Source of the DNA: Syntrophus gentianae
GTDB lineage: Bacteria > Desulfobacterota > Syntrophia > Syntrophales > Syntrophaceae
Assembly (NCBI RefSeq): GCF_900109885.1
Contig: NZ_FOBS01000021.1
Span: 1 to 58,867, forward strand
Length of the DNA stretch: 58,867 nucleotides
Direction: 5' to 3'
Part shown: positions 12,946 to 44,577 of the stretch, in pieces
Layout of the letters: every line of letters begins with the position of its first letter
Position numbering within the stretch: position 1 is the stretch's first letter
The notes under the pieces: generated by a model
The model's database searches: none
What the model was told of the DNA's origin: nothing
What the model saw: only the letters and a program-made list of their open reading frames with translations
Program-made: the position numbers and the translations under genes

Positions 12946-13198
12946 TGTTTCCTTTTTAAATACCCGCAACCTATCGGAGTTAAGGCGATCCGGCAAAAGC
13001 ATGGATCTATTATCCCTTTGAATCTGTCGAACGCAATCTAATTTTGTCTCCACTTTTAGTTTTTCCTGGACCGGCGCAAGGGAAAACTTTTCCTGTCGCC
13101 GATTTTTGCTTGACATTGAAGTCCATTCTTCCAATACTTTTGTTGTTTTATCGCGAAGATCACTGATGACAGAGGATAGGGGCCGGAAGGAGAATCTC

Positions 13199-21294: not shown

Positions 21295-22434
21295 TTGTTC
21301 GATAATATCTACCAAAACAAAACCGTACTGATCACCGGTCATACAGGCTTCAAGGGATCATGGCTGGCGCTCTGGCTCAAAGAACTGGGCGCCAACGTCA
21401 TCGGCTATTCGCTTGCTCCCCCCAGCCAACCCAACAATTTTGAGGTGACGAATCTCCGGGAGAAAATGACGGATGTTCGGGGCGATATCCGCGATCTCGA
21501 TTGCTTGTTGGAAACTTTCACGAGATATCAGCCGGAATTGGTCTTTCACCTCGCTGCCCAGCCGATTGTCCGCTGCTCCTACAACGAACCGAAAATGACC
21601 TTTGACACGAATGTCGGTGGGACGGTCAACATTTTTGAGGCCGTTCGCAGAACCTCCAGCGTCAAAGTTTTGGTCAATGTGACCAGCGACAAATGCTATG
21701 AAAACAGGGAGCGGGTCTGGGGGTACCGGGAAAACGATCCTTTGGGCGGCCATGACCCCTACAGCGCCTCTAAAGCTTGTGCGGAACTTGTTTTTAATGC
21801 CTATTTGAAATCGTATTTTTCTCAAAGCGTTGTCCATGGCAGGACGATCGGCGCCGCCTCCGTGCGTGCAGGCAACGTGATCGGAGGTGGGGATTGGGGG
21901 GTGGACCGTCTGGTTCCCGACTGTATTCGTTCCCTGAGCCGTAATCGACCCGTCTTTCTCCGCAACCCTCGTTCCGTCAGACCGTGGCAGCACGTCCTGG
22001 AAGCCCTAGGTGGCTATCTCCTTCTTGGCGCCTGTCTTTCGCAGAATCCTGAAAAATATTCCGGAGCCTGGAATTTTGGTCCCGACGACGGCAGTCATCT
22101 GACCGTTCTCGCTTTGACGGATCTTCTGATCAAATTCTGGGGAGAGGGGGTCTGGGTGGATATCTCCGATTCCACGTCGCCCCATGAGGCGAAGCTTCTC
22201 AAACTGAATTGCGACAAGGCCCATGCCGGACTCAACTGGCACAACGTTCTTACCATCGACGAATGCCTGCAGATGACGGCCCAATGGTATCAGAAATATT
22301 ACCGGGAAAGTCAGAGCCGCGATCTTTCCGCCCTTTGCATCGAACAGATCCGTGACTACATGGATCTGGCCGAAGGGAGGCTTCTGGACCTGGGCGTTAA
22401 AATTGCCACCTCGAAGGCGGTATTGTGCTCATGA
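21295..22434 (+). CDS. rfbG: CDP-glucose 4,6-dehydratase
   Basis: This extended SDR of 379 residues has the NAD loop TGHTGFKG near residue 15, the YxxxK pair in DPYSASKACAEL near 160, and family signatures such as VNVTSDKCYEN and AGNVIGGGDWG. It turns CDP-glucose into CDP-4-keto-6-deoxyglucose. The start is TTG at 21295 with GGGGGAA upstream. It is the first gene of the 15-gene operon and overlaps rfbH by four bases. The order here (G-H-F) differs from the F-G-H order of Salmonella. Confidence 0.95.
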   Translation: MFDNIYQNKTVLITGHTGFKGSWLALWLKELGANVIGYSLAPPSQPNNFEVTNLREKMTDVRGDIRDLDCLLETFTRYQPELVFHLAAQPIVRCSYNEPKMTFDTNVGGTVNIFEAVRRTSSVKVLVNVTSDKCYENRERVWGYRENDPLGGHDPYSASKACAELVFNAYLKSYFSQSVVHGRTIGAASVRAGNVIGGGDWGVDRLVPDCIRSLSRNRPVFLRNPRSVRPWQHVLEALGGYLLLGACLSQNPEKYSGAWNFGPDDGSHLTVLALTDLLIKFWGEGVWVDISDSTSPHEAKLLKLNCDKAHAGLNWHNVLTIDECLQMTAQWYQKYYRESQSRDLSALCIEQIRDYMDLAEGRLLDLGVKIATSKAVLCS

Positions 22435-23753
22435 GAACTGCTGAAGATATTCGTTCTGAAATTCTCGCCCTTACCAGGGAGTACCATTCGGCGAAGTTTT
22501 CCAAAAAAGTCTTCAATCCTGGAAGGGAGATGGTCCATTATGCCGGAAGGATTTTCGATGAACAGGAAATCGTGAATCTGGTCGATGCCGGCCTGGACTT
22601 CTATCTGACGGCCAGCCGTTATGCCGAGCACTTCGAGGCCGAGTTTGCCGATTATCTCGGACTGTCCCATGCCCTGCTTGTGAATTCCGGATCATCGGCC
22701 AATCTTGTGGCCTTGACCACCCTGACTTCGCCCAAGCTCAAAGATCTCCGCCTTAAGCCGGGCGATGAAGTCATAACCACGGCCTGTGGCTTTCCCACGA
22801 CCGTCAATCCCATTGTGCAGAATCAACTGGTTCCCGTTTTCGTCGATGTGAACCTCCGTGACTATACCGCCATTCCCGAAAGACTTGCCGGAGCGATCGG
22901 TCCTCAGACCAGGGCCATCATGATGGCGCACACCATGGGGGTTCCCTTTTGTCTCGACGCCGTTTTGGATCTCGTGAAGAAGCACAGGCTCTGGCTTATC
23001 GAAGACAATTGCGACGCCCTGGGTTCAACCTACCGAGGACAGTTGACAGGCACATACGGGCATCTCTCCACCTTCTCCTTCTATCCGGCGCATCACATCA
23101 CGATGGGGGAGGGAGGGTGCGTTGCGACCCATGACGATGACCTGGCCCGCATCGCGCAATCCTACCGTGACTGGGGGCGGGACTGTTACTGTGCCGGAGG
23201 GAAAAGCAACTCCTGCGGGGAACGCTTCAGCCGGCAATTCGGGAAACTGCCTTTCGGTTATGACCATAAATATGTGTACAGCCACATCGGTTATAACCTG
23301 AAAGTGACCGACATGCAGGCCGCCATCGGTTGTGCCCAGCTTAAGAAGCTCGAACAATTCGTCGCCAGACGCAGAGAGAATTTTCTGGACCTGACCAGGA
23401 GGCTGCAGGCCTATGAAGACCGCCTTCTCCTTCCCAGGGCCACGGAACATTCCGAGCCCTCGTGGTTCGGTTATGTCATCAGCGTAAAAGAGAAAGCCGG
23501 TTTTTCCCGCAACGACCTGACCGCCTTTCTGGAAGCCAACCGCATTGAGACCCGAAACCTCTTCAGCGGCAATCTCCTGTGTCACCCCGCCTATCAGAAT
23601 ATTCCCCATCGCGTTGCGGGGGACCTGACGAACACGGATTTCGTCATGAACAACACCTTTTTTATCGGTGTCTATCCGGGAATCGACGACCGGCATTTGA
23701 ATTTTATCCAGGCCGTGTTCGATCGCTTTATGGCCGGGGAGCGTATCTCGTAA
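22431..23753 (+). CDS. rfbH: CDP-4-keto-6-deoxyglucose 3-dehydratase (E1)
   Basis: This is a PMP-dependent, aspartate-aminotransferase-fold enzyme of 440 residues. The normal PLP lysine is replaced by His (AHHITMGEGG, His about 221). Cysteines 194, 252, 254 and 262 have exactly the C-x57-C-x-C-x7-C spacing of the E1 [2Fe-2S] cluster. It removes the 3-OH to give the 3,6-dideoxy series. The known pathway needs an E3 (DdhD/AscD) reductase, which is not encoded in the window. The start ATG 22431 overlaps the rfbG stop (ATGA). Confidence 0.95.
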   Translation: MRTAEDIRSEILALTREYHSAKFSKKVFNPGREMVHYAGRIFDEQEIVNLVDAGLDFYLTASRYAEHFEAEFADYLGLSHALLVNSGSSANLVALTTLTSPKLKDLRLKPGDEVITTACGFPTTVNPIVQNQLVPVFVDVNLRDYTAIPERLAGAIGPQTRAIMMAHTMGVPFCLDAVLDLVKKHRLWLIEDNCDALGSTYRGQLTGTYGHLSTFSFYPAHHITMGEGGCVATHDDDLARIAQSYRDWGRDCYCAGGKSNSCGERFSRQFGKLPFGYDHKYVYSHIGYNLKVTDMQAAIGCAQLKKLEQFVARRRENFLDLTRRLQAYEDRLLLPRATEHSEPSWFGYVISVKEKAGFSRNDLTAFLEANRIETRNLFSGNLLCHPAYQNIPHRVAGDLTNTDFVMNNTFFIGVYPGIDDRHLNFIQAVFDRFMAGERIS

Positions 23754-23869
23754 ATGGGTCTTGTAAATCGTATCTTAATCAGTCCGGACTCCCTGCGGTC
23801 ATGCCAGGACGGCCGGTTTCTCAGAAGGCAAGGATTCTGCGGTAGAGAAGATATTTTGGGGTGGAAGTC

Positions 23870-24637
23870 ATGAAAGTCGTCATTTTAGCCGGGGGCATGG
23901 GCACGCGCATCGGCGAAGAATCCCACTTAAAGCCGAAGCCGATGATCGAAATCGGCGAACGTCCCATTTTATGGCATATCATGAAGCATTATGCCCGGTA
24001 CGGCTTCAATGATTTCATCATCGCCCTGGGCTATAAAGGCGAGATGATCAAGCGATACTTCCTCGATTATTACACGTCGAATCATGATCTTACGGTGTCG
24101 CTCGTTGACGGATCGGTGCAGAGCCTCAACCGTAATCGGTGTGAACCATGGAAAGTCCAGCTTATCGATACAGGTCGGCTCACCCTGACGGGCGGACGCC
24201 TCAAGCAGCTGGCGTCCCTCATTCATGAGGATGCTTTCATGATGACCTATGGTGATGGCGTCAGTGACGTGAATCTGGAGGAATTGCTGAAATTTCATCG
24301 GGAAAACAAAGGCCTGGTCACCCTGACCGCCGTGCGGCCTCCCGCCCGTTTCGGCGCCCTTGAATTTGAAGGAAACAGGATCTGCCATTTCAAGGAAAAA
24401 TCCACCCTTCATGAAGGTTGGATCAACGGGGGCTTCTTTGTGATGGACACGGATGCATTGAACTACATTGAGGGGGATGTCATGTGGGAGCACGCCCCGA
24501 TGGAAAAACTGGCAGGAGATGGAGAACTCTACGCTTACAAGCACGAAGGCTTCTGGCAATGCATGGATACGGTTCGGGATCGCCAGTATCTGGAATCGCT
24601 GTGGAAAGCGAATAGCGCCCCCTGGAAGAGTTGGTAA
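23870..24637 (+). CDS. rfbF: glucose-1-phosphate cytidylyltransferase
   Basis: The 255-residue protein starts MKVVILAGGMGTRIGEES, followed by KPKPMIEIGERPILWHIM, the nucleotide-binding signature of this family. TYGDGVSDVN supplies the metal-binding aspartate. It makes CDP-glucose from CTP and glucose-1-phosphate, the substrate of RfbG. I start at ATG 23870 rather than the in-frame GTG at 23861. A gap of 116 bases separates it from rfbH; I see no promoter or other gene there. Confidence 0.95.
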   Translation: MKVVILAGGMGTRIGEESHLKPKPMIEIGERPILWHIMKHYARYGFNDFIIALGYKGEMIKRYFLDYYTSNHDLTVSLVDGSVQSLNRNRCEPWKVQLIDTGRLTLTGGRLKQLASLIHEDAFMMTYGDGVSDVNLEELLKFHRENKGLVTLTAVRPPARFGALEFEGNRICHFKEKSTLHEGWINGGFFVMDTDALNYIEGDVMWEHAPMEKLAGDGELYAYKHEGFWQCMDTVRDRQYLESLWKANSAPWKSW

Positions 24638-24689: not shown

Positions 24690-25580
24690 ATGACAGAGAT
24701 AAGAATTGGAGACACCCTGGTTGGCGATGGTCATCCGTGCTTCATCATTGCTGAAATCGGCATCAATCATAACGGAGATATCGATATTGCCAAAAAACTG
24801 ATTGATCTCGCTCAATTCTCGGGATGCAACGCCGTCAAATTTCAAAAACGCACCGTAGAGGTGGTTTATACGGCGGCAGAACTGGCTGCCTGTCGTGAAA
24901 GTCCCTTCGGAAAGACCAACGGTGATCTGAAATACGGTCTGGAGTTCGAACTCGAAGAATATCAGGAGCTGGACCGCTACTGCAGAGAAAAGGGCATTAT
25001 ATGGTTTGCCTCCTGCTGGGATGAAGATTCTGTTGATTTCATCGACCAGTTTGATGTGCCCTGTTACAAAATCGCCTCGGCAACTCTGACGGATGACGAT
25101 CTGATCCGTTACACGCGATCAAAAGGAAAGCCGATCATCCTGTCAACGGGGATGAGCACGTTAGCACAGATTGATCACGCCATCGAAGTGCTCGGCAAGG
25201 AGGATCTGGTGATTTTACACGCAACAAGCACCTATCCTGCCGAATATCCTGAGCTCAATCTGTCGGCCATCTCAACAATGCGGCAGCGGTGGGATGTGCC
25301 CGTGGGATATTCCGGCCACGAAACCGGCATCCCCACATCCGTGGCTGCAGTGGCCCTGGGCGCCTGTGTGATGGAACGGCACATCACCCTTGATCGGGCG
25401 ATGTGGGGATCGGATCAGGCCGCGTCTCTGGGCCCCGGCGGGATCATCAAAATGGTGCAGGGCATTCGCCTCATCGAAATGTCCATGGGGGATGGCGTCA
25501 AAAGGGTTTTTGAACGTGAGTTGCCGGTGATCAAGAAACTGCGGCGTAAGGGGCAAGTCTATGCATATGCCTGTGCATAA
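24690..25580 (+). CDS. NeuB-family ulosonate synthase lacking the SAF domain
   Basis: The 296-residue protein is a NeuB-type TIM barrel: FIIAEIGINHNGDIDIAKKLI, NAVKFQKRT, YKIASATLTD, KPIILSTGMST, GYSGHETGI and ERHITLDRAMWGSD. These are the PEP- and metal-binding strands. It stops after KKLRRKG, exactly where the C-terminal SAF (antifreeze-like) domain, which shapes the substrate pocket in NeuB, PseI and LegI, would begin. The phosphatase gene overlaps its end. Likely reaction: condensing PEP with a sugar aldehyde to give a 2-keto-3-deoxy acid. No CMP-transferase (neuA/pseF) is nearby. The substrate is unknown. Confidence 0.85.
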   Translation: MTEIRIGDTLVGDGHPCFIIAEIGINHNGDIDIAKKLIDLAQFSGCNAVKFQKRTVEVVYTAAELAACRESPFGKTNGDLKYGLEFELEEYQELDRYCREKGIIWFASCWDEDSVDFIDQFDVPCYKIASATLTDDDLIRYTRSKGKPIILSTGMSTLAQIDHAIEVLGKEDLVILHATSTYPAEYPELNLSAISTMRQRWDVPVGYSGHETGIPTSVAAVALGACVMERHITLDRAMWGSDQAASLGPGGIIKMVQGIRLIEMSMGDGVKRVFERELPVIKKLRRKGQVYAYACA

Positions 25581-26055
25581 CATAAAGGCCATCGCCCTGG
25601 ATGTAGACGGCGTGCTGACCGACGGCACATTTGTCTGGGGTGTCGATGGCGGAGAATACAAGAAATTTTCCTTTCTGGATATCATGGGGATTTCCCTGGC
25701 GGTAAAGTCCGGATTGATCCTGGCGCTGATTTCAGGCGAAGACAATCCCCTTATTGACCGCTATGCAGGAAAAATGGGGATCGTCGATGTTTTCAAGGGA
25801 TGTAAGGACAAGGCTTCGGCTTTAAATAGTTTTGCGCAGAAGTACCGCCTTCCCCTTCAGCAGGTTTGTTTTATGGGGGATGACATCAATGATCTAGCAG
25901 CCATGGAATTGGCAGGGATGGCCGCAGCGCCGTCGACGGCTCATCAGGCAGTCCTGGCGAAGGCGAACCTGGTGACGAAGTGCGGCGGGGGACAGGGAGC
26001 CGTTCGAGAGTTGATCGACTTGATCCTGACCAGCAGGGAAGGTGAAACGTCATGA
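25561..26055 (+). CDS. KdsC-like HAD phosphatase
   Basis: The 164-residue capless HAD (C0 type) carries ALDVDGVLTDGTFVW, ISGED and CFMGDDINDLAAMELAG, the family motifs of KDO-8-phosphate phosphatase. It would dephosphorylate the product of the adjacent NeuB-like synthase. The start at 25561 has AAGGGG upstream and lies inside the neuB-like frame by 20 bases. Its stop overlaps the TPP-enzyme start (ATGA). The three genes are clearly co-translated. Confidence 0.88.
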   Translation: MHMPVHNIKAIALDVDGVLTDGTFVWGVDGGEYKKFSFLDIMGISLAVKSGLILALISGEDNPLIDRYAGKMGIVDVFKGCKDKASALNSFAQKYRLPLQQVCFMGDDINDLAAMELAGMAAAPSTAHQAVLAKANLVTKCGGGQGAVRELIDLILTSREGETS

Positions 26056-27851
26056 AACTTTCCGATTATGTTGTCCAGTTCATCGCAGATCAGAGGGTCC
26101 GTCACGTGTTTCTGCTCCCCGGCGGCGGAGTCATGCATATCAACAATTCCACTGGCCATCATCAAGAGATCGAATATGTCTGTATGCTCCATGAGCAGTC
26201 CGCAGCCATTGCCGCGGAAGCCTATGCCCGCGTCACCAATCATCTCGGTGTCGCCGTCGTGACCACCGGTCCGGGAGGGACCAATGCGCTAACAGGCGTG
26301 GCCGGAGCATGGCAGGATTCAACGCCCTGTCTTTTTATCTCCGGACAGGTCAAGCGGGCCGACATGAAGGGGGACACCGGCGTCCGACAGCTCGGCGTGC
26401 AGGAAATCGATATTGTGTCCATCGTCCAATCCATCACCAAGTATGCGGTAACGGTAATGGATCCCTTGAAGATCCGTTATCATCTGGAAAAGGCCGTCTA
26501 TTTGGCCAAATCGGGTCGGCCCGGCCCGGTCTGGATCGATATCCCCCTGGATGTCCAGGCTTCCACGATAGATCCGGAAGCCCTGGAGGGCTTTGCTGCC
26601 AAAGAGATCGAATTTCCCTCTAATCAACTGAAAATTGAGCATCAGGTCTCGCAGGTGATCGATCTGTTCAATCGCGCGGAAAGACCGGTGATCCTGGCTG
26701 GAAACGGCATATCTCTTTCGGGGGCGCAATCTGATTTCCGGGAAATGGTCGATCTGCTGGGAGCGCCCGTACTGACCACGCGGCTAGGGGTGGATCTGCT
26801 GCCGGCATCTCATGAACTGTGCTTCGGAATGCCGGGCTCCATCGCCACGCGTGCTTCCAATTTCATCCTCCAGAATTCCGATTGTCTGCTCATTCTGGGG
26901 GCGCGGCTGGACATGGCTCTGATCGCCTACGCACCGGAAAATCTGGCCAGAGCCGCAAAAAAGGTTATGGTAAACATGGATCCCGCTGAAATCCACAAAG
27001 TGGGGAACATCATCGATATCCCGATCCCTGCGGATGCAGGACTCTTTATCCGTGAACTCTGCAGACAATCCACGCGAATTCGACCCCGCAACCGTTCTGA
27101 CTGGGACAAACGGTGCCGGGAATGGAAAGACAGGTACCCCTTTGTCCTTCCCGAGCACCACAAAAACAAGGCAGGCATCAGCGTGTATGCCTTTTCGGAC
27201 GTTATCTCCGAGGAACTCAGCGGGGAGCATATCATCCTTCCAGGCAATGCCGGAAATTCCAGCGAGTTGTTTCTAACGGCCTTCAAGGTTAAAGCCGGCC
27301 AGCGCGTTTTCCACAACAAAGGCACCGGCGCCATGGGTTTTTGCCAGCCTGCCGCCATTGGGGCCTGTCTTGCCGGAGGAAGGAGGCCGACGGTCTGCAT
27401 CGACGGTGATGGAGGCTTTCAATTGAACATTCAGGAACTGGAAACCGTGAGGCGTCTGAACTTGCCCATCAAATTCTTTGTCATGAACAATCAGGGATAT
27501 GCTTCCATCCGTTCGTCGCAGATGGGTTATTTCGGACGATTGACGGGCGCGGATGCTCAAAGCGGCATGACCCTGCCCGACATTGGAAAAATCTCGGCGG
27601 CCTATGGCCTGAAAACGGCCCGCATAGCCAGTCCGCGGAATCTTAGAGAGCAGATCCGGCGCGTTCTTGACCGGGAAGGTCCGCTGGTCTGCGATGTGGC
27701 CGTTATTCCTGACGAGATCAGAGCCCCGCGGGTTTCCTCCGTTCAGAAGCCCGATGGTTCGATGACTTCAAGGCCTTTGGAGGATATGTGGCCTTTTCTG
27801 GATCGGGAGGAGTTTCTTGCAAACATGATCGTCCCCCCATTGGATGAATAG
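26052..27851 (+). CDS. thiamine-diphosphate enzyme, acetolactate-synthase-like
   Basis: The 599-residue protein has the full ALS architecture. The N-terminal PYR domain carries the catalytic Glu48 in CMLHEQSAAIAAEAYARV and VTTGPGGTNALTG; the central domain reads AERPVILAGNGISLSGA; the C-terminal PP domain has CIDGDGGFQLNIQELET with NNQGYASI. Neighbours argue against amino acid synthesis, since no small subunit follows. Relatives in sugar clusters (YerE of yersiniose synthesis) add a two-carbon unit to C4 of CDP-4-keto-3,6-dideoxyglucose, exactly the compound made by RfbF/G/H here. A role in branching that sugar is inference. Confidence 0.85.
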   Translation: MKLSDYVVQFIADQRVRHVFLLPGGGVMHINNSTGHHQEIEYVCMLHEQSAAIAAEAYARVTNHLGVAVVTTGPGGTNALTGVAGAWQDSTPCLFISGQVKRADMKGDTGVRQLGVQEIDIVSIVQSITKYAVTVMDPLKIRYHLEKAVYLAKSGRPGPVWIDIPLDVQASTIDPEALEGFAAKEIEFPSNQLKIEHQVSQVIDLFNRAERPVILAGNGISLSGAQSDFREMVDLLGAPVLTTRLGVDLLPASHELCFGMPGSIATRASNFILQNSDCLLILGARLDMALIAYAPENLARAAKKVMVNMDPAEIHKVGNIIDIPIPADAGLFIRELCRQSTRIRPRNRSDWDKRCREWKDRYPFVLPEHHKNKAGISVYAFSDVISEELSGEHIILPGNAGNSSELFLTAFKVKAGQRVFHNKGTGAMGFCQPAAIGACLAGGRRPTVCIDGDGGFQLNIQELETVRRLNLPIKFFVMNNQGYASIRSSQMGYFGRLTGADAQSGMTLPDIGKISAAYGLKTARIASPRNLREQIRRVLDREGPLVCDVAVIPDEIRAPRVSSVQKPDGSMTSRPLEDMWPFLDREEFLANMIVPPLDE

Positions 27852-27864
27852 ATAGAGGTAGCTT

Positions 27865-28932
27865 ATGGAAATCGCAACGATCACGAAAAAAGAAATCGAA
27901 AACACAAAAAGAGAAAAGCTCAAAAGGGAAAAGCCCCAAGTTTATGAAAAGATCATCAAACTGGCGGACAAGGAAAGGAGAGGGGAGCCGACCTGCCGGA
28001 TTGACATCGGTTACAACTATGCCTGTAATCTTTCCTGCCAACACTGCATGGCGAATAAGTTCCAAAAGAAAGCGCGCTCATTGACGGTTGCCGATATGCG
28101 CAACATTGCCGAACAGGCTGATGCCCTGGGCTGGTGCCAGTTCAACATTTCCGGGGGGGAGCCGCTGATTCTGAAAAACTTTGACGAGGTCCTCGCCGCA
28201 CTGATGCCGGAAAAGTTCCATATCGGGATCAGTACGAACGGTTATTTCCTGACACTTGAAAAAGCGCGACATCTCAAAGAGATCGGTCTGGACAAAGTCA
28301 TGATCAGCCTGGACAGCATCGACCCGGATCTTCACAATGCAAACCGTGCCAGCAAGGAAGGCTATGAAAAGGCCATCAGCGCCATCTGGAATGCGAAAGC
28401 GGCCGGTCTGGATACGATCATCCAGCACGTCGTCTCGCATCAGAACGCCCAAAGCGAAAATACGGTTGAACTTGCCAGATTTGCCCAGGAAAATGGTTTT
28501 TCCCTGGATCTGGTGATCGCCAAGGCAATAGGGCAGTGGGAAGGGAAGCACGAGGTCTTGATCGACAGGGATGACGCCGCTTTCCTGCACAAGCTTAACC
28601 AGCAGTATCCGGCGGCGCGGCGGGATGTCTTTCCTTCGTACGGCATGAAAGGCGGATGCGGGGCGTTGAACAAGTGCTTTCACATTACCCAGTATGGCGA
28701 CGTGCTGATCTGCGTCTTCATGCATATCAGCATCGGCAATGTCTTTGAGGATTCCCTGGAGACGATTGTCGCCAGAGGCAACAAGATCAAATATGTCAGA
28801 AACTTTTCCCCGCTCTGTCTATCCGGGGAAGACCGGAATTTTATCGACAAGTACATGACGCGCTTTTATGGCAAGCCCCTGCCCGTTGATTACCGGGAAA
28901 TATTTGATGCTGATGATTTTGTTGAGGATTAA
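27865..28932 (+). CDS. radical SAM protein 1
   Basis: The 355-residue protein carries CNLSCQHC (CxxxCxxC) near residue 55 for the SAM-binding cluster, then FNISGGEPLIL and ISTNGYFLT, and a C-terminal cysteine-bearing region (GGCGALNKC; VLICVF; IGNVFEDSLETIV) of SPASM/twitch type. The charged N-terminus (about 35 residues of K and E) is unusual. Such proteins modify peptides or sugars by radical chemistry. Substrate unknown. The gene begins 14 bases after the TPP enzyme with AGAGGTAG as ribosome site. Confidence 0.85.
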   Translation: MEIATITKKEIENTKREKLKREKPQVYEKIIKLADKERRGEPTCRIDIGYNYACNLSCQHCMANKFQKKARSLTVADMRNIAEQADALGWCQFNISGGEPLILKNFDEVLAALMPEKFHIGISTNGYFLTLEKARHLKEIGLDKVMISLDSIDPDLHNANRASKEGYEKAISAIWNAKAAGLDTIIQHVVSHQNAQSENTVELARFAQENGFSLDLVIAKAIGQWEGKHEVLIDRDDAAFLHKLNQQYPAARRDVFPSYGMKGGCGALNKCFHITQYGDVLICVFMHISIGNVFEDSLETIVARGNKIKYVRNFSPLCLSGEDRNFIDKYMTRFYGKPLPVDYREIFDADDFVED

Positions 28933-28935
28933 TCC

Positions 28936-29916
28936 GTGCAGGCCTTATCCAGATATTCTCAATTGAAGACCAGTCGGATTGACCTGGGCAGTGCGATTCC
29001 CCTGAGGAAGCCTTTTACCCTCCTCTTTGAGCCGGCGAGTCTCTGCAATTTCCGGTGCATCTGCTGCTATTACAATAACCCTGACGTGTATTCCCATATG
29101 CCGAAAGGGTTGATGAAGTTTGACGATTTCACGAAGATCGCGGAGGACCTCGCATCCTGGGAAGGGAAAAAAATCAAGGTCATTCGGATCATTGGATTCG
29201 GAGAACCCCTGATCAACAGAGACACCGGGAAAATGGTGGAGACTCTGAAACGGCTTGACGTAGCTGACCGAATTGAAATCACTTCTAACGGTTCCCTGCT
29301 GACTCCGGCGGTAAGCCGGCAATTGATTGATGCCGAATTGGATTATCTCCGGATATCCATTTATGCCGCGTCTCAACAGCGGCATGAAGCCGTGACGAGG
29401 AGCAAAATCGCTATTGAGAAAATCGCTTCTAACGTTGCTCAGTTGCGCCGTCTGCGCGATGAGCGGAAAAGAGAAAAACCCTTTATCTATGTCAAGATGC
29501 TGGACAGTTTTGATGAAGAGGAAAATCAGCGTTTCTTTGACCGGTATGCCGATCTTGCCGATGAAGTCGCGCTGGAGAAGCCCCATTCCTGGTTGAGCAA
29601 CGACAATGCCCCTCTGCAGGGTTCCTCGGAAAAGGCCATCTGCCCGCAGCCCTTCAAGATGCTCAGTATCCGCTGCAATGGCGATGTCATCGTCTGTGAC
29701 CCGGACTGGAAAAACAACACGAAAGTAGGCAACGCGTTGGAAGAGACTGTAAAAGACATCTGGAACGGTCATGCCCTGCACGACTTCTGGAAAATGCAGC
29801 TGGAAAACCGGCGTTGGGAAAATGAAAGCTGCCGGAACTGTTCTTTCCTGATGAATCGGGAGTATGTCCTGGATGATCTGGACGGCGTTTCTCCCCAAAT
29901 TTTGGAGGAAAGGTAA
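28936..29916 (+). CDS. radical SAM/SPASM protein 2
   Basis: The 326-residue protein has LCNFRCICCYYNN (CxxxCxxC) near residue 38, IGFGEPLIN, and a C-terminal SPASM-type cysteine set (AICPQPFKML; VIVCDPDWKNNTKVGNALEETVKDIWNG; CRNC). The start is GTG 28936, four bases after the previous stop. It is closer in layout to radical SAM protein 4 than to 1 or 3. The substrate is unknown. Confidence 0.85.
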   Translation: MQALSRYSQLKTSRIDLGSAIPLRKPFTLLFEPASLCNFRCICCYYNNPDVYSHMPKGLMKFDDFTKIAEDLASWEGKKIKVIRIIGFGEPLINRDTGKMVETLKRLDVADRIEITSNGSLLTPAVSRQLIDAELDYLRISIYAASQQRHEAVTRSKIAIEKIASNVAQLRRLRDERKREKPFIYVKMLDSFDEEENQRFFDRYADLADEVALEKPHSWLSNDNAPLQGSSEKAICPQPFKMLSIRCNGDVIVCDPDWKNNTKVGNALEETVKDIWNGHALHDFWKMQLENRRWENESCRNCSFLMNREYVLDDLDGVSPQILEER

Positions 29917-29919
29917 GGG

Positions 29920-31113
29920 ATGGGATTTTACGAGGACAGCCGGGAACGTCAACGCCCGGTGGTGATTTTCGGGGCATCGGTTCTGGGCGAAGTCGCCTTG
30001 CAGGCGCTGGAGGTGTGCGGATTGCGCCCCGTCTGTTTCGGCGACAACGATCGGGAGAAGCAAAAGAAATTTTTTCATGGGTACCCGGTATGCGGCCTGG
30101 AGGAAATCCATGGGAAATATCCCGGTGCGGTCATCGTCATCGCGGCGGGACGCTATTACAGTGAAATCTATGACCAGGTTTTCTCAAAGGGTTATCGGCA
30201 GATTTACAACGATGCCGATGTCATCGACCGGATTGACTTTGCTTCGGTTCCGTTCGAGAGGATCAAGGGATTCCTCTGGCGGCTCGCACAACTGGGTCAC
30301 CTGTCACGGATCAAAAACATCCCGACGGACGCTTTGCATCTGGAACGGTTGAACATCGTAGTGACACAGCGCTGCACATTGAGCTGCCGGCATTGCTCCA
30401 GTCTCATGCCTTTTTATGAGAATCCCCGGGATTGTGACACATCGTTGCTCCTGAAGTCGATCGAACGGATTATGAACTGTGTCGATTACATTTATCACCT
30501 GGAAGTTCTCGGGGGCGAAACGCTGCTGAACAAGGATCTGCCTCTCATCATGAACACATTGAATCAATATGAAAATATCTTCCAGATCGACGTCATCACC
30601 AACGGGACTCTGCTGCCTCGGCCCGGTCTGCTGGAGTGCCTGAAACACGATTCCATCTGTGTCGTGGTGAATGACTACGGGCCCGTATCCAGAAAAAAAG
30701 AGGAACTGCTCGATGCATTGAATCGAGCCGGGGTCCGGAACCGGCAGAACCGACATTGGGCATGGGCTGACCTGGGTGGATTCGAGCCGCGCCACCGGGG
30801 CGAAGAAAGCCTGACACGATTGTTTCAGGAATGTAATTTCAGTTCCTGCACCGAATTGCTCGACGGAAAACTGCACCGCTGCCCACGGTCTTCGCATGGG
30901 ACAAGGACAGGCATGATCCCGGAATACGCCTCGGACTTTATCGATGTTTTGGACTTGTCCATAGGCGATGACCTTTTAAAGGAGAGACTGAGAGCCTTTT
31001 TCCAGAAGACCGGGTTTATCCGCGCCTGTGATCATTGCAACGGGAACACTCGCGATTCTTTGAAGCTGACTCCGGCAGAACAGCAAGCGCAGGAGGTGAC
31101 GGTCAATGGCTGA
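29920..31113 (+). CDS. Rossmann-domain and radical SAM fusion protein 3
   Basis: Residues 1-85 form a small nucleotide-binding-like domain (VVIFGASVLGEVALQALEVCG; CFGDNDREK; VIVIAAGRYY). Residues 140-380 are a radical SAM domain with CTLSCRHC, YHLEVLGGETLLN and a SPASM-like tail (RACDHCNG). The N-terminal module is the same kind as the C-terminal part of the methyltransferase encoded next, suggesting a shared partner or ligand. GGAGG precedes the ATG, and the end overlaps the methyltransferase by eight bases. Confidence 0.8.
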   Translation: MGFYEDSRERQRPVVIFGASVLGEVALQALEVCGLRPVCFGDNDREKQKKFFHGYPVCGLEEIHGKYPGAVIVIAAGRYYSEIYDQVFSKGYRQIYNDADVIDRIDFASVPFERIKGFLWRLAQLGHLSRIKNIPTDALHLERLNIVVTQRCTLSCRHCSSLMPFYENPRDCDTSLLLKSIERIMNCVDYIYHLEVLGGETLLNKDLPLIMNTLNQYENIFQIDVITNGTLLPRPGLLECLKHDSICVVVNDYGPVSRKKEELLDALNRAGVRNRQNRHWAWADLGGFEPRHRGEESLTRLFQECNFSSCTELLDGKLHRCPRSSHGTRTGMIPEYASDFIDVLDLSIGDDLLKERLRAFFQKTGFIRACDHCNGNTRDSLKLTPAEQQAQEVTVNG

Positions 31114-32260
31114 GGGGAAAAACTGCCGTGCCTGCGGGAATGTCCTCGGCAACGAAAGTCTGCTCTGCCTTTCCGGTATGCCGGGCGCCGTACAGAATTT
31201 ACCTGTTGACCGGCAGGAAGCGATGGCTTCCGGCGTTGCCCTGGACGTTCGACAGTGTGACTTCTGTGGACTCGTCCAGCTGACCAACAGACCGGTCCCC
31301 TATTACCGGGACGTGATCCGGGCGGGAAGCTTTTCCCCCTCCATGAGAGCGCGGCAGTTGAATGAATTTCAAAGATTTGTCGAACGTTTTTCCCTGCAGG
31401 GGAAAAATATCCTCGAGATCGGTTCCGGCCGGGGGGAATATCTCTCTCTTCTGAAGGAACTGCCCGTCAGGGCCTTCGGAATGGAGCACAACGCGCAATA
31501 CATCCAGACGGCCAATGAAAAAGGGCTGAAGACCTTTCCCGGATATCCGACCGACTTGACCGGCCCCTTGACGGATCTCGTCTTCGATGCCTTTGTCTCC
31601 ATCAATTTTCTCGAACATGCCCCCGAGCCCGGCGCCTTCCTGCGTTCCTGTGCGAATCTCGTTTCTGAAACCGCCATTGGAATGATTGCGGTCCCCGATC
31701 TCGAGTTCGAGTTGCGGGACAACTATCTCTTCAGCTTCATGAGCGATCATCTTTCCTATTTTTCATCCGACTCCCTGCGAAACACTTTGATCCTCAACGG
31801 CTTTGAGGTCATCGACCTCTTCAGGAACGACAAACTCAATGTCGTCACCGCCTATTTCCAGCGCCGGAGACCCTGCGATCTTTCCGCGCCGATGGGCCGA
31901 TACGATAACGTTACCGGAAAGATCAACGATTACCTGGATTCGATCCTGGACAGCGGCGGGCGCGTCGCGGTCTGGGGCGCCAGCCATCTCGCCTTCAGCA
32001 TTCTCTCCGCAGCGGGAATGCAGAACAGGATTTCCTACATCGTTGATTCCGCGACTTTCAAACAGGGCAGATTCGCCCCTCCCTCCGGTTTGGAGATTTT
32101 TTCCCCGTCTCATTTGTTTGAAGATCCCGTAAATGCGGTCCTGATCTTCTGTCCAGAGTATTCCGCCGAGATCGTAGGGGAAGTCAAAGAAAAATATCAT
32201 CCCATTGTTCAGCACATAGCGACTTTCAAGAACGGCGGGTTAGAAATCGTCTCGGAATGA
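31106..32260 (+). CDS. sugar C-methyltransferase-like protein (TylC3/TcaB9 layout)
   Basis: The 384 residues show three parts. A four-cysteine zinc-binding head (CRACG...CDFCG) covers residues 7-55. A class I SAM domain (NILEIGSGRGEYLSLL; SINFLEHAPEPGAF) spans about 95-250. A C-terminal Rossmann module (RVAVWGASHLAFSILSAAG) fills the rest. This head-middle-tail order is that of deoxysugar C-methyltransferases such as those for mycarose or evernitrose. A methyl branch on a keto-deoxysugar is therefore likely; the acceptor is inference. The ribosome site is GGAGGTGA. Confidence 0.85.
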   Translation: MAEGKNCRACGNVLGNESLLCLSGMPGAVQNLPVDRQEAMASGVALDVRQCDFCGLVQLTNRPVPYYRDVIRAGSFSPSMRARQLNEFQRFVERFSLQGKNILEIGSGRGEYLSLLKELPVRAFGMEHNAQYIQTANEKGLKTFPGYPTDLTGPLTDLVFDAFVSINFLEHAPEPGAFLRSCANLVSETAIGMIAVPDLEFELRDNYLFSFMSDHLSYFSSDSLRNTLILNGFEVIDLFRNDKLNVVTAYFQRRRPCDLSAPMGRYDNVTGKINDYLDSILDSGGRVAVWGASHLAFSILSAAGMQNRISYIVDSATFKQGRFAPPSGLEIFSPSHLFEDPVNAVLIFCPEYSAEIVGEVKEKYHPIVQHIATFKNGGLEIVSE

Positions 32261-32284
32261 GAAAAATCATAGAGGTGTTTTATC

Positions 32285-33295
32285 ATGGCTGAAATCAAAA
32301 GCAAGCAGGAGACCCAAAGGACCAGGCTTGAAACCGTCATTCCTCTGGAAACCCCTTTTGTATTAATGTTGGCTGTTGCAAGTGTCTGCAATTTCCGTTG
32401 CGGATATTGTCCCTGTTCTGCACCTGATTTGTTGAAAAAGAACCAAGTCAAGAAAGGAATCATGGACTTTGATCTTTACACCAAGATTATTGACGACCTT
32501 GAGGAATTTCCACAAAAAACAAAAATACTGCGATTGCAGAAGGAAGGAGAGCCTCTGTCAAATAAGCGATTTGCTGACATGGTCCGCTATGCAAAAAAGA
32601 AACAACCTTCATTGACGGTTGATACGACGACCAATGCAAGCCTTCTGACGCCGGAGCTTTCCGATGCCATCATTGACGCCGGCCTGGACAAGATCTTCAT
32701 TTCCCTTCAGGGCATGAATGCTGATGCTTACAAGAGATTGGCAGGCGTTGATGTGGATTTTGATCACCTGGTTGAAAACATCCTCTATTTCTGCCGAAAC
32801 CGCCGACAGTGCAAAGTCTATATCAAAGTGCCCGATATCGGTGTGAACGAAGTTGAAAAGGAGCAGTTCTTTCAACTCTTTGACGATCATGTCGACGAAA
32901 TGTTTGTCGAACACATCATTCCTACTTGGCCTGATTTCGATATTTCCTCCGTGAAGAAAGATGATGACATCGGCTATTACGGGGATCCGTTATATCCCGA
33001 TTACATCAAAGTCTGCCCGATAATTTTCTATAATTTGGTTGTCAATTTCGACGGCGCCATTGCTCCATGTTCAGTGGATTGGGCTCACTTAACTGTTCTT
33101 GGAAATGTCAAAGAGCAAAGTCTGAGAGAACTGTGGAATGGGGAAAAAATCAATACCCTGCGAAGACAGCACCTGCGGGGCAAGAGGAGGGCGCATCCCC
33201 TTTGCGGGAAATGTGTGACCCTGGAATACTGCAATGTGGACATGATCGACGCGTATGCTGATGAAATTCTTGGGAGATTCAACTCTCTACCTTAA
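32285..33295 (+). CDS. radical SAM/SPASM protein 4
   Basis: The 336-residue protein has VCNFRCGYCPCSAPD (CxxxCxxC) near residue 38, LQKEGEPLSN in the place of the GGE motif, and a C-terminal SPASM set (VCPIIFYN; APCSVDWAHLTVLGNVKE; CGKCVTLEYCNVD). The N-terminus (TRLETVIPLETPFVLML) parallels that of protein 2, so the two look like duplicates. The DNA seems richer in A+T than its neighbours by eye. Function unknown. Confidence 0.85.
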   Translation: MAEIKSKQETQRTRLETVIPLETPFVLMLAVASVCNFRCGYCPCSAPDLLKKNQVKKGIMDFDLYTKIIDDLEEFPQKTKILRLQKEGEPLSNKRFADMVRYAKKKQPSLTVDTTTNASLLTPELSDAIIDAGLDKIFISLQGMNADAYKRLAGVDVDFDHLVENILYFCRNRRQCKVYIKVPDIGVNEVEKEQFFQLFDDHVDEMFVEHIIPTWPDFDISSVKKDDDIGYYGDPLYPDYIKVCPIIFYNLVVNFDGAIAPCSVDWAHLTVLGNVKEQSLRELWNGEKINTLRRQHLRGKRRAHPLCGKCVTLEYCNVDMIDAYADEILGRFNSLP

Positions 33296-35445: not shown

Positions 35446-36393
35446 ATGACGGATACGAAAGGTTTGCCCATCAAAAACAAACGCATACTCATTACGGGCG
35501 GCACCGGCTTTTTCGGGAAAAGTCTGATTCATCACAGCCCTGCATTTTATGAGAATGATTTTGTTCTCCTGTCGCCTGACGTCGACGAGTTGAAAAAGGA
35601 CTTTGCTTTCCTGCTGAGGGGAAAACGGATCGAATTTATCCGAGGCGATGTCCGGGACTTTGCGTTTCCCGAGACGAACTTTGACTATATCCTCCATGCG
35701 GCGACAACTTCGGGAAAAATCATCCCCGACGATGAAATGCGCTCCGTGGTCATCGACGGGACAAGGCGTGTCCTTGAATTCGCCGCGCAGAACAGAGATC
35801 TTTCCCGGCTGCTTTATATCAGCTCCGGTGCCGTTTACGGGAGCGGATACAATGTCCCGCTGCAGGAAAATTTCCCCTGCGGACCCGAAACGGTTTACGG
35901 CAAAGCGAAACTCGAAGCCGAACAACTCTGCCTCGATTCGGAAGTCCCCTGTAGCATCGCCCGCTGTTTTGCCTTTGTCGGAGAATATCTCCCTCTGAAT
36001 GCCCATTTCGCCATCGGCAATTTTCTTGATGATTGTCTGAAGAACCGGGAGATCGTCATTCAAGGGGACGGCACGCCTGTTCGGACCTATCTTTATGCCG
36101 GTGATCTGGCGCATTGGCTCTGGACGCTGCTCCTCCAGGGAAAACCCGGACGGGTCTATAACGTAGGTTCCGACGATGAGATCTCAATCCGCAACCTTGC
36201 GGAAACTGTCCGGAAAATCTCCGGGACAAGTAATAAAATCAGGGTATTGGCGCCGATCGCCGCCGCGCGGCCGCAGCGTTATGTACCGGATGTATCCCGG
36301 GCAAGAAAGGAGCTCGGACTTGAAGTGAAAACCTCGTTTGAGGAGGCGATTCGCCTGACTCTTGAATATCATCGACAGCGCAGAGTAAATTGA
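35446..36393 (+). CDS. NAD-dependent epimerase/dehydratase 2
   Basis: This 315-residue extended SDR carries ILITGGTGFFGKSLI near residue 15, HAATTSGK, YISSGAVYG, and VYGKAKLEAE as the YxxxK pair. The C-terminal region (RTYLYAGDLAHWLWTLLLQ; YNVGSDDEISIRNLAETV; RYVPDVSRARKELGLE) is that of dTDP/UDP-sugar epimerases. It probably epimerises or reduces a keto-sugar intermediate of this operon. It ends two bases before the frame of the giant glycosyltransferase. Confidence 0.85.
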   Translation: MTDTKGLPIKNKRILITGGTGFFGKSLIHHSPAFYENDFVLLSPDVDELKKDFAFLLRGKRIEFIRGDVRDFAFPETNFDYILHAATTSGKIIPDDEMRSVVIDGTRRVLEFAAQNRDLSRLLYISSGAVYGSGYNVPLQENFPCGPETVYGKAKLEAEQLCLDSEVPCSIARCFAFVGEYLPLNAHFAIGNFLDDCLKNREIVIQGDGTPVRTYLYAGDLAHWLWTLLLQGKPGRVYNVGSDDEISIRNLAETVRKISGTSNKIRVLAPIAAARPQRYVPDVSRARKELGLEVKTSFEEAIRLTLEYHRQRRVN

Positions 36394-36403
36394 CGTGGAG
36401 GAG

Positions 36404-39400
36404 ATGCCTTTGTTCGTAAAATCCCTGAAAAAACAATCCATTAAGGTGCTGGTAGCCGGCAGTAAATTTTTTTCCGGTAACGCGCGGCGGGGTTATGGCT
36501 ATGGGTGGTGGAACCTCTATGATGCATTAAACCGTTTTGATAACATCCAGGCCCAATTTTTTGACTTTACCACCGAAGCACAGCAGGGGGTTGAAGCGGG
36601 GATGATGCAGCGGCTTGAAGAAGTCGTCAGGAAAGAAAAACCGGATTTGCTCTGGTATGAACCTCTGAATTTGCGAATGGACATTCTTCCCGAATTTTTG
36701 CAATCCATAACCGATTCAACCGGCACGCAAACTGTCATCTGGATAAATCATCATGAACTTCAAAAGGAGAAGGCAGCACTCTGGGGTGCATGCGCTGATT
36801 ACATCATTACAATTTCACCTGAAACGGCTGGCTATTATGCTGCCGCAGGTTTTGGTAGAAAAATCATTAAGAGTCAATGGGGATTCAATCCTTTTACTTA
36901 TGCGTTCACGTTATCCCCAAGAATCAGGGATATCAGCTTTTGCGGTGCGGCAAAAGGCAATCGTTCAGATATTCTGGAGAAAATCAGGCAGATCGGTTTG
37001 CCTGTTGATGTCTTTGGATCAGGATGGCATGGAGACTCTTTCATTCCTTTTTATGACATGGTGAGGATCTTCAATCAATCTCGGATTAATCTGAACCTCA
37101 ACGGCACATCTGATCCTGTGGTGAGGCAGATCAGCAGAAGAACGTTCGAAGTGCCTGGCTGCCGTGGATTCCTCCTTACATCACCTTCTCTCCACTTGGA
37201 AGAGTACTACGAACCGGGCAAGGAAGTGATGGTCGCATCCTCACTGGAAGAACTGGTCGACAAAGCAAAGTATTATCTTACCCATGAACGCGAAAGGGAA
37301 AGCATTGCACAATGCGGCTATGAAAGAACACTGGCTGAGCACACTTGGTCGCATAGGCTCGTTGATATATTTAAAAACATCGGGTTTAAGGCTGTTCCCC
37401 AGCCTCTCCTGCAGGCCGCTCAATCTCCTCTAAAGCAATCAGTTGCTCCTATCCGTACGTACAATCTTTCTTCAGCTCATACGGATCGATCATCAACTGA
37501 CCTTGTAAATAATGATGACAATCTGGCCAGCCTCTGGGTTCTTGCTTACAACCAGTTAAATTACACAAGGCAATGTGTTGAGAGTATCCTCCATTACACG
37601 TCGAGTCCTTATGAATTACTCTTGATAGACCATGGATCAACAGATGGGACCTTTGAATATTTCAATTGGGTGAAGAGTTTCCATCCAGACACCAGAGTTA
37701 TTAAATATTTCCGAAATCGTACGATAGAAAAAACCACCAATCATGCTGTTTCTCTCGGCCGAGGCAAATACAGCGTCGTTGTAACAAATGACATCATGGT
37801 TCATGAAGGATGGCTTGAGAATTTCATTAGACACGTTGAATCTGCACCTGATATCGGAATAGTAGGACCACGTTCAAACAACATCAGTGGCCCGCAGCTC
37901 ATGCCGGCAGAATATGCCACTGCAGAACAGTACCAGACTTTCGCAGCGGCCTGGGCTAGAGATCATAAAGGGGAGAATTTTTCCTTACAGCGCGTGGTTG
38001 GAATGTGCACAATTATGAAGAAAGCTGTTCTTGAACGGATTGGTGGCGGCGATCCAGAACTACCGACTAACGGGCGGGATGGCGGTTATGGATTCAGTGA
38101 TGATGATTCCAATATACGGCTTTTGCTGGCAGGATACAGGTCGCTTGTGGCCAATGATGTTTTTATTCATCATTATGGCAGTGTGACGGTGCGACAACAT
38201 CGTCCCGATCTCTTCGGCGCTCCCCAGAACATCAATAAAGAAAAGTACCTTCGAAAACTTCAGCTAAACAATAGGATTACCATAGGGACTGACGGTAACA
38301 TCAAATTAAGGCCTTACACCCTGGATGACGTAATTCCGGTTGATGAACGGACAATCATCCGTACCCCACGGATATGTTTTGCTGAGAGGGGCGGAGATCT
38401 TTCAATAATAGCCGGTATCGAAAGCCGTTACGCTGCCGTTGCCCGGAAATATAACGGGCAGATCGTCCAGGCCGGGGGTGAAGCGATTTCTTCCCTGGTT
38501 TTGAAAGCCCTTGAGGAAAAAGAATACGATTATCTGGTGCTGATCGATTCCCGGCTTGCCCCGTCTCCGGAAATTCTTTCCGCATTGACGGAATACGCCC
38601 TGTGCTATCCCGATGTCGCCGTGATGGTGCCCCTTGGAAACTATGCGCCCGCCACGCACGCGCACAAGGTGGCGTCGGACAAGGGTGTTGAGATCATTCC
38701 TTATGCGGACCTGTCCTTATGTGCCATCAACCTCAAAATTGTCCACCCCTTGCGCATGGGACTTGCCCAATGTGAGGATGAAGAGGAATGGCTGTGGTTT
38801 TTGCAACGGCGAATCCGTGGGGAAAACTATTTTATTGCCAAAGCAAATGCTCTTGAAATCAACGGTAGTTTGCCGGTGCTCGAGCATCCTTACGATGCCC
38901 GACCGCTTCCGGAGGAGCTGGTAAAAGAAGAAAAATACGCTGAGGCGGCCTCCATTTACCGGAATGATCTCCGTAAAGACCCGAATTTTGCCGAGGCCTA
39001 CTATCAGCTTGCCTCTATTGCGAAAGAGCAGCAGCAGAAGGAAATGGCGGTCGATTATGCTCGCCAGGCATTGCAGGCAGATCCTCACCATATTCTCTCC
39101 CTGGTGCTTCTCTCCCGGATCTTTCTTGAACAGGGTGATTTCAAAAACGCCACGGCCTTTGTGAGTCAGGCTAACTTCAAGCAGCCGGGTCACCCGGAGG
39201 TGCAGAAAGTCGTATCCATGTACGAGGAAAAGTTTAAAGAGCATCCCGAATTTTTTCAGAAGGACACGAGTGAAGAAACGATATCCCTGACCCATCGTGA
39301 AATCATCAAAGGGAAAGTTTCCATTATTTTGGTCACCCAGAATCGGCTGGATTTTACAAAGAAGTGCGTCAACAGCATCCGCCGGCACACACGCCAGCCC

Positions 39401-43437: not shown

Positions 43438-44577
43438 TTAGAAAAGTTTCAGAACCGACTGGGCCGCCTGCGCCGAGAGGCTCAGGGCCGTGGTGGCCAG
43501 AGACTGACGGGTCTGAAGCATCAGCATGTTGGCGCCTTCCTCGTTGGTATCGGCCAGCGTCAATGCATCCGAACCTTCTGTAAGCGTGTTGACCATGTTC
43601 GTCGAGAAATCCTCACGGGTGGTGATGATGCTCAGGTTGCTGGACAGTTTGGATGAGTTCATGGCCAAGGTGTCCAGAGCATCGTCCAGTTCATTCAGAG
43701 AGGACTCCATGGTGGTTGTGCCATGCAGTCTCCATTCCATGGAATCGGCTATTTCACTGATGCCCAGTCCCGTTGCACTCGCATCGAAGCCTTCCACCGT
43801 CAGGGTGTTGCCCTCGAACTTCACAGCGAGATCATCATCCGACAGGAGGTTTTTGCCTTTGTATCCGGAGTCTTCCGCCAACTCCGTGATCTGAGTGAGC
43901 AGTTCGTTGTACTGCTCCTGGAGATTGGTAAGTTCGGTATCCTGCTTATCAACCAGGGCTTCCGTTCCAAAATTTGCGCTTGCGGTAACACTGGACGTTG
44001 TCAGATCCGTGTACGCCTTCCGAATAACGACGTTATTGTTGTCATCTTCATCGATACTTGCTACATAACCTGCGGAAGACAGAGTGGAGCTGGCATTGAT
44101 CGCGGCTACAATAGCTTCTGCCGTGTCGGTATCAGCAGTGCTGCCGGTTCCAATATCAAAATCGGTACCTGCCGTCAGCGTCAAACCGCCGATTGCGATC
44201 GTATCGGATGTCGACAAACTCGAAGCTGTTACGACGAAGGATACCCCGTCCGTCCCTTCGGCGTTGTCCGCACTGAGGGCCGACTGGGCAACAGCTTTGG
44301 CCTGTTCAATCATGGAGTTGATTGCGGTGATTCCCTTGTCGGCGGCGGTGACCGTTTCGATGGCCTGTCCCATGGAGTCCTTCAAACTTTCAATTTTGGA
44401 GGCGCGGGAGTTCAGGGACTGCGCTGCGAAGAAGGAAACGGGGTTGTCGATGGCTGTGTTAACTTTCTTTCCTGTGGACAAGCGATTCTGGGTGCGGTCT
44501 AAAAGTTCACTGGTGTTCTGAAGGCTTAAAAGATTGGACCTCATTCCGGATGATAATGAAATATCACTTAGTGACAT
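43438..44577 (-). CDS. fliC: flagellin
   Basis: The 379-residue protein has a conserved D0/D1 start (NLLSLQNTSELLDRTQNRLSTGKKVNTAIDNP) and C-terminus (TREDFSTNMVNTLTEGSDALTLADTNEEGANM, ending QSVLKLF). The shortened variable centre, rich in Ser and Thr (about residues 110-210), is the surface-exposed part and offers many O-glycosylation sites. This end resembles alphaproteobacterial-type flagellins, fitting the FlbT/FlaF pair. It is the last step of the filament and the likely target of the neighbouring sugar operon, which is inference. Confidence 0.95.
   Translation of the reverse strand: MSLSDISLSSGMRSNLLSLQNTSELLDRTQNRLSTGKKVNTAIDNPVSFFAAQSLNSRASKIESLKDSMGQAIETVTAADKGITAINSMIEQAKAVAQSALSADNAEGTDGVSFVVTASSLSTSDTIAIGGLTLTAGTDFDIGTGSTADTDTAEAIVAAINASSTLSSAGYVASIDEDDNNNVVIRKAYTDLTTSSVTASANFGTEALVDKQDTELTNLQEQYNELLTQITELAEDSGYKGKNLLSDDDLAVKFEGNTLTVEGFDASATGLGISEIADSMEWRLHGTTTMESSLNELDDALDTLAMNSSKLSSNLSIITTREDFSTNMVNTLTEGSDALTLADTNEEGANMLMLQTRQSLATTALSLSAQAAQSVLKLF

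Follow-up and report, generated by a model that had tools for sequence, protein, structure and literature searches.

Among the described systems closest to the locus reported here are those of C4-branched 3,6-dideoxyhexoses. According to the accessible part of a recent review (PMC12247030), ErwE, the erwiniose enzyme, couples a hydroxy keto acid to the cytidine diphosphate (CDP) sugar CDP-4-keto-3,6-dideoxyglucose, and MMAR_2332, the caryophyllose enzyme, has a donor preference like that of ErwE, its acceptance of a ketone being still open. Caryophyllose, a C12 sugar, carries a C6 chain at its C4 position (PMC7821131 and PMC5706390, in the portions available), and its carbon count may be read as C6 plus a C7 keto acid minus CO2, which makes it a precedent for the chemistry proposed below. 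The sugar acid Kdn forms from mannose-6-phosphate and phosphoenolpyruvate (PEP), as stated in the accessible text of PMC7845648. Here we describe a 58,867-nucleotide stretch of Syntrophus gentianae DNA (contig NZ_FOBS01000021.1, the whole of which is called the window) in which genes for a NeuB-type synthase, a KdsC-like phosphatase and a YerE-like enzyme dependent on thiamine diphosphate (ThDP) form a trio. We consider it likely that the trio makes a 2-keto-3-deoxy sugar acid that is joined, after decarboxylation, to C4 of CDP-4-keto-3,6-dideoxyglucose.

The genes of the trio, which RfbG, RfbH and RfbF precede, overlap by 20 bases (synthase and phosphatase) and 4 bases (phosphatase and ThDP enzyme); the original prediction of a coupled trio gave these coordinates and overlaps exactly to the base:

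24690..25580, + strand: SAF-less NeuB-type PEP-condensing synthase, 296 amino acids (aa), with PF03102 matched over its full length
25561..26055, + strand: KdsC-like HAD phosphatase, 164 aa, TIGR01670 at 124 bits (cut-off 107)
26052..27851, + strand: YerE-like ThDP-dependent carboligase, 599 aa, with three Pfam TPP-enzyme domains and 8rph as best PDB match

Scanning genome contigs with a four-protein alignment and two conserved peptide patterns gave 391 relatives of the ThDP enzyme, and the rates given throughout refer to the nearest 80 of these, with up to 10 kb fetched on each side. A NeuB-type gene was found by tblastn in 75 of the 80 loci, SAF-less in 43 (called at 250 bits or more) and longer in 32. 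The order NeuB, phosphatase, ThDP enzyme, with each gap between -120 and 400 bases, is kept in 59 of the 80 (37 SAF-less and 22 long), a close and ordered linkage that takes the arrangement beyond chance, and the trio is found together in many bacterial phyla. Two loci with a long NeuB and RfbH (L104 and L126) lie on contigs titled archaeal, one from an uncultured archaeon and one from a Micrarchaeota metagenome-assembled genome (MAG), where a binning error is possible.

By sequence comparison the window's ThDP enzyme is YerE-like, in that a characterised enzyme of this kind stands nearer to it than acetolactate synthases do. Its best match among solved structures is 8rph (388 bits), ahead of 5ahk (314) and of plant acetolactate synthases at about 250, and 8rph is JanthE, a YerE-like enzyme (PMC12188165, in its accessible part). 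A comparison with YerE and acetolactate synthases had been proposed in the original prediction, and it places the window enzyme with JanthE: in a tree built from 28 rows selected out of 91, without the genome's two very distant ThDP proteins, these two enzymes fall in one set with support of 100/98, and the acetolactate synthases, together with the distant ThDP protein L071, stand apart from that set (100/100). Branches in this tree are long and the order of JanthE, 5ahk (which we take to be PpYerE, the Pseudomonas YerE), L063 and L062 is unsure; a larger tree was rooted at its midpoint and omits L082, which has no ThDP row, and L125, which is too short. A tree forced to group the window protein with three acetolactate synthase rows was rejected (p-AU 7.3e-7, approximately unbiased test). 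The acetolactate synthase model TIGR00118 scores 374 bits for this protein, below its cut-off of 538. E48 and G452-D453-G454 are invariant in four aligned relatives, and we take them to be the catalytic glutamate and the ThDP-binding motif. JanthE, the closest solved relative, has a similar PLED stretch near the C-terminus, but CDG where the window enzyme has GDG. A plasmid collection queried with the ThDP enzyme at E 1e-60 held no near relatives, only 5 records of 31.9-33.2% identity (3 annotated ilvB); the NeuB query found 92 records there.

The first gene of the trio is predicted to encode a NeuB superfamily synthase with a complete barrel and its PEP and metal residues. All of the 241 positions of PF03102 (1-241) are matched by residues 37-271, the protein ends 25 residues further on, and the Pfam scan gave no match to any SAF family, so that the claim of a synthase stopping before the SAF domain holds. 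The equivalog model for NeuB sialic acid synthase (TIGR03569) is not reached (268 bits, cut-off 400). An AlphaFold2 model built from 36 sequences, the structure prediction that had been suggested, is confident (mean pLDDT, the predicted local distance difference test, 89.9), and NeuB-type structures match it best: 6ncs in first place, followed by Neisseria NeuB, SpsE and PseI. The best match, the Leptospira NeuB 6ncs, is likewise short at 290 residues, but only 31% identical. Across the 36 sequences E22, K50, K127, S130, S208, H210 and H231 are invariant and S152 nearly so. The window protein keeps the residues aligned with the PEP, metal and catalytic sites of Neisseria NeuB, differs at those aligned with positions 74, 134 and 184, and has lost the SAF arginine with the domain; the roles of these residues are presumed to be those of the Neisseria enzyme. 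Short length is the rule in this group, 41 of the 43 SAF-less proteins having 287-293 residues (the remaining two have 317 and 444 by the same rule), and open frames of less identical NeuB relatives in the same phylum are mostly about 335-430 aa. NeuB matches occur in 136 of the 395 genomes of the window's phylum, and the only strong one in the window's own genome is that of the trio.

The phosphatase is assigned by its profile match to the KdsC/YrbI subfamily, and it falls under the equivalog cut-offs for both KdsC (125 against 208) and KDN-9-phosphatase (111.5 against 180). By tblastn, a KdsC-like gene accompanies the SAF-less NeuB in 42 of 43 loci. In the 32 loci with a longer NeuB, a protein of about 510 residues occupies the place of SAF-less NeuB plus KdsC, and the one example scanned against Pfam (516 aa, L133:7854-9404) has a C-terminal cupin resembling D-lyxose isomerase. 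Of these 32 loci, 25 also carry a HAD-fold protein of about 196 residues with an invariant DxDDVLN and other HAD-like motifs (22 aligned); one such protein gave no match in a Pfam scan, and in a fold search its predicted fold resembled HAD 5'(3')-deoxyribonucleotidase (E 1.7e-8, TM by query 0.63). Crossed pairs, in which one kind of synthase stands with the other kind of phosphatase, number 0 among the 80. In L047 the phosphatase is fused to an apparent Gfo/Idh/MocA oxidoreductase; under the label L078 it clusters with one Pfam-scanned protein.

Cytidine monophosphate (CMP) transferases are nearly excluded from the ThDP loci. For comparison 25 SAF-less loci were fetched (the 24 best short-NeuB loci and G023), with five other-NeuB loci besides. 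In three of the 25 (L043, L047 and L062) a ThDP gene adjoins NeuB, RfbH is present and CMP-transferase is absent. The other 22 lack an adjacent ThDP gene, and a profile made for this purpose, part of whose training set came from these loci, detects a CMP-transferase in 21 of them, as against 2 of 83 ThDP loci (L132, and L130 at the end of a contig). The profile gives 1 of the 43 SAF-less loci of the 80, and plain tblastn gives 18 of 22 against 1 of 80; Fisher tests on the profile counts take no account of relatedness among the loci. These numbers bear on the possibility that the ThDP enzyme is an ordinary pyruvate-using YerE, with NeuB and KdsC providing an independent sugar acid to some other part of the glycan. 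YerE itself takes pyruvate, as stated in the accessible part of PMC12247030. Moreover, YerE-like enzymes standing with RfbF, RfbG and RfbH in the absence of NeuB do exist: when the search was started from RfbH in the 395 genomes of the window's phylum, which gave 27 loci besides the window, a ThDP match of at least 250 bits was found in 13 (only partial, at the edge of the stretch, in L169), and of these 7 have NeuB and 6, with ThDP identities of 37-51%, do not. A separate acid, however, would normally need the CMP-transferase that the ThDP loci so rarely have, and neither the close ordered linkage in relatives nor the replacement of one synthase-phosphatase pair by another fits such independence, so we regard this explanation as unlikely. 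What the 6 of 13 do imply is that supply by NeuB belongs to the window's ThDP subgroup and not to all YerE-like enzymes. A NeuB-type match is present in 3 of the 14 RfbH loci that lack a ThDP match, in one case on a 4.4-kb contig.

It has also to be considered whether the window makes a CMP-activated sugar of the nonulosonate type by means of a NeuA encoded elsewhere, the ThDP gene being a mere neighbour. The original prediction had noted no CMP-transferase beside the trio, and indeed the window's contig, C21, has no CTP_transf_3 match; elsewhere in the genome, matches lie on contigs C4, C9 and C39, the last below cut-off. The genome search that it had called for turned up a NeuA-like gene on C9 (L035:1423-2130) and, within the 3.6 kb fetched there, no NeuB. 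The neighbours of that gene, by eye, are an apparent hydroxyacid dehydrogenase, a cyclase and a glycosyltransferase. Against a role for this gene stands also the near mutual exclusion of CMP-transferase and adjacent ThDP gene in relatives, as does the finding that in 13 of the 37 closely ordered SAF-less loci the ThDP start shares 1 or 4 bases with the end of the phosphatase gene, and we hold a CMP-activated product to be very improbable. Rather, it seems that one kind of NeuB product is either CMP-activated or handed to the ThDP enzyme and that this fate has switched more than once, because five changes of the ThDP label are needed on the NeuB tree, at least 2 of them forced by well-supported branches, and L056 and L062, which are sister proteins, do not share the label.

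The acceptor side of the proposal comes from three genes directly upstream of the trio, each above the cut-off of its equivalog model:

21295..22434, + strand: RfbG, CDP-glucose 4,6-dehydratase, TIGR02622 at 480 bits (cut-off 278)
22425..23753, + strand: RfbH, presumably the 3-dehydrase of the CDP-3,6-dideoxyhexose pathway, NF011936 at 674 bits (cut-off 423)
23861..24637, + strand: RfbF, glucose-1-phosphate cytidylyltransferase, TIGR02623 at 365 bits (cut-off 300)

The linkage of the ThDP enzyme to RfbF, RfbG and RfbH that had been pointed out for the window recurs across phyla, with at least one of them matched within the fetched stretch in 56 of the 80 loci and all three in 18. RfbH itself stands in 25 of the 43 SAF-less ThDP loci and, at 250 bits or more, in 0 of the 22 loci whose SAF-less NeuB has no ThDP gene next to it. 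That leaves 24 loci with none of the three in the fetched stretch, and in 8 of these 24 genomes RfbH is without any match, as might be expected if the ThDP enzyme joined the NeuB product not to a CDP-4-keto sugar but to, say, an aldehyde or a second keto acid. Several of these assemblies are small and many are MAGs, so they may be incomplete; in the other 16 of the 24, RfbH lies elsewhere in the genome, compared with a background at the same E-value of 12 of 199 genomes in the phylum of one of the 24 (a count of 12 that includes two of the 24) and, with the E-value set more strictly, 28 of 395 in the window's phylum. The closest solved relative, moreover, is a ketone-accepting YerE-like enzyme, and a different acceptor thus strikes us as improbable.

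Several further observations weigh against a ThDP enzyme fed by NeuB and KdsC, in the same direction as the RfbH loci without NeuB, the genomes without RfbH and the NeuA-like gene on C9. The rates describe near relatives only. Five of the 80 loci (L079, L125, L128, L136 and L150) have no NeuB match at threshold: in L125 and L136 the stretch breaks off immediately ahead of the ThDP gene, in L079 there is nothing beyond a truncated NeuB-like piece, and L150 has about 2.2 kb upstream of the ThDP gene with no NeuB match there, but L128 is a real, full-length exception. Eight NeuB-bearing loci of the 80 (7 long, 1 SAF-less) lack a phosphatase match. L177, which lies outside the 80 and has a ThDP enzyme 37% identical to that of the window, pairs a long NeuB (near 13191) with a KdsC-like match (near 10723), the ThDP gene being near 11329, so the two synthase-phosphatase pairs are not strictly fixed. 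Finally, L063 holds a CMP-transferase and a SAF-less NeuB together with a ThDP gene about 8 kb away whose product is 41% identical to the window's.

With these points taken into account, decarboxylation of the NeuB-derived acid and its addition to the CDP sugar would run as follows, each catalytic step, the chain length and the transfer to a glycan being what we infer from the genes and their linkage. The SAF-less NeuB would condense PEP with a phosphorylated aldose, probably without an N-acetyl group, to the phosphate of a 2-keto-3-deoxy aldulosonic acid, from which the KdsC-like phosphatase would strip the terminal phosphate, leaving the free 2-keto-3-deoxy sugar acid. RfbF, RfbG and RfbH would in parallel supply CDP-4-keto-3,6-dideoxyglucose. 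The YerE-like enzyme would then decarboxylate the free keto acid and add the acyl carbanion to the C4 ketone of that sugar, which would thereby become a tertiary alcohol carrying a long polyhydroxy-acyl branch. The new branch ketone of this CDP sugar may be reduced by an NAD-dependent oxidoreductase such as EpiB (see below). Final transfer would be to a glycan, perhaps on flagellin, a Flagellin_N protein being encoded downstream. The suggestion in the original prediction of a ThDP-dependent acyl transfer to C4 of a CDP-4-keto sugar is thereby supported, the carbon-carbon bond, the acceptor and the donor in it being proposed ones.

An acceptor for NeuB that lacks the N-acetyl group is probable because the SAF domain was lost together with its arginine, whose role we assume to be that in the Neisseria enzyme. 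A hint at what this acceptor might be comes from GmhA-like sedoheptulose-7-phosphate isomerases. Such a domain is fused to the KdsC-like phosphatase in L062:12301-13569, where the fusion sits with the ThDP enzyme, and in L056:8408-9562, of the sister lineage, where it sits with a CMP-transferase. GmhA-like matches are found in 17 of the 80 loci (14 of 43 SAF-less, 2 of 32 long, and L150), with the gene directly adjoining NeuB in L087, L100 and L130, and in 2 of the 22 comparison loci (L056 and L061). These neighbours hint at an aldoheptose 7-phosphate as acceptor, although such genes can also serve NDP-heptose synthesis.

The neighbouring genes of the island bear on what may follow ligation:

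27865..28932, + strand: radical SAM/SPASM protein rS1 (PF04055, PF13186)
31106..32260, + strand: methyltransferase with a C-methyltransferase C-terminal domain (PF13489 and PF08484 over cut-off, PF08421 below)
35446..36393, + strand: EpiB, NAD-dependent epimerase/dehydratase (PF01370)

EpiB, matched by tblastn at 120 bits or more in 38 of the 80 loci, is a candidate reductase or epimerase acting after ligation. Relatives of rS1 occur in 20 of the 80, some with a B12-binding radical SAM protein; the window has four radical SAM proteins in this one glycan island (27865-33295), one of them just under the Pfam cut-off. The methyltransferase resembles what we take to be sugar C-methyltransferases and might play such a part. 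By eye, a Rossmann-like stretch recurs in a radical SAM protein (29920-31113), in the C-terminal part of the methyltransferase (31106-32260) and in FkbM-type proteins of related clusters, with L116:11820-13013 among the relatives; it may be a binding site for a sugar nucleotide that these proteins have in common as substrate. The island closes with a gene (36395-42028) whose 1877-residue product combines several stretches of glycosyltransferase family 2 with one GT1-type glycosyltransferase-like domain and TPR repeats. Because the island lies between FlgE- and FlgD-like genes (by eye) on one flank and a protein with a flagellin N-terminal domain (43438-44577) on the other, flagellin glycosylation is a fair guess. 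Further on, a small protein (45841-46449) has a borderline PEP-CTERM motif (19.9 bits, cut-off 20.7).

Taken more broadly, ThDP decarboxylation and fusion to a CDP-4-keto-3,6-dideoxy sugar could be a second widespread fate of NeuB acids, giving products of about 14 or 15 carbons, a view to which we give even weight for and against. Under it, a C9 acid from a hexose phosphate would lead to C14 and a C10 acid from an aldoheptose 7-phosphate, an option raised by the GmhA-KdsC fusion and the GmhA genes beside NeuB, to C15, and two different synthase-phosphatase pairs would have been recruited. Aurantose is a 14-carbon sugar, a size not found stated in the literature that we searched. In that literature, outside which most subscription journals lie, no paper names YerE and NeuB together and none describes NeuB as the donor supply for a ThDP ligation. 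If the proposal is right, a single pathway explains the long donors of large C4-branched sugars, and the arrangement, spanning as it does many phyla and including two loci titled archaeal, would be a widespread route to large branched sugars and a variant of the yersiniose, erwiniose and caryophyllose kind. Some annotations as N-acetylneuraminate synthase or acetolactate synthase would then need renaming, and biocatalysis could profit from a set of ThDP enzymes expected to take ketones as acceptors and long polyhydroxy compounds as donors.

The comparison with known systems can be drawn along the pathway itself. At its start it resembles the Bacteroides route of KDN-9-phosphate synthase and KDN-9-phosphatase, in which a NeuB-type synthase likewise acts on a phosphosugar and a KdsC-type phosphatase follows; in Bacteroides, however, the free acid goes on to CMP activation, whereas in the window the next linked gene is that of the ThDP enzyme. 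At its end it resembles yersiniose A formation in Yersinia pseudotuberculosis, YerE sharing with the window enzyme the ThDP decarboxylase superfamily, the C4 branch and the acceptor proposed here, CDP-4-keto-3,6-dideoxyglucose. YerE prefers pyruvate and reaches a C3 chain at most, according to the accessible part of PMC12247030, while the window enzyme adjoins genes for a NeuB and a phosphatase. ErwE and MMAR_2332 share with the proposal longer, hydroxy-functionalised 2-keto acid donors and a C4-branched 3,6-dideoxyhexose as product, and the same accessible part of that review does not name the enzyme that makes their donors, which is the step that a linked NeuB and phosphatase would provide here.

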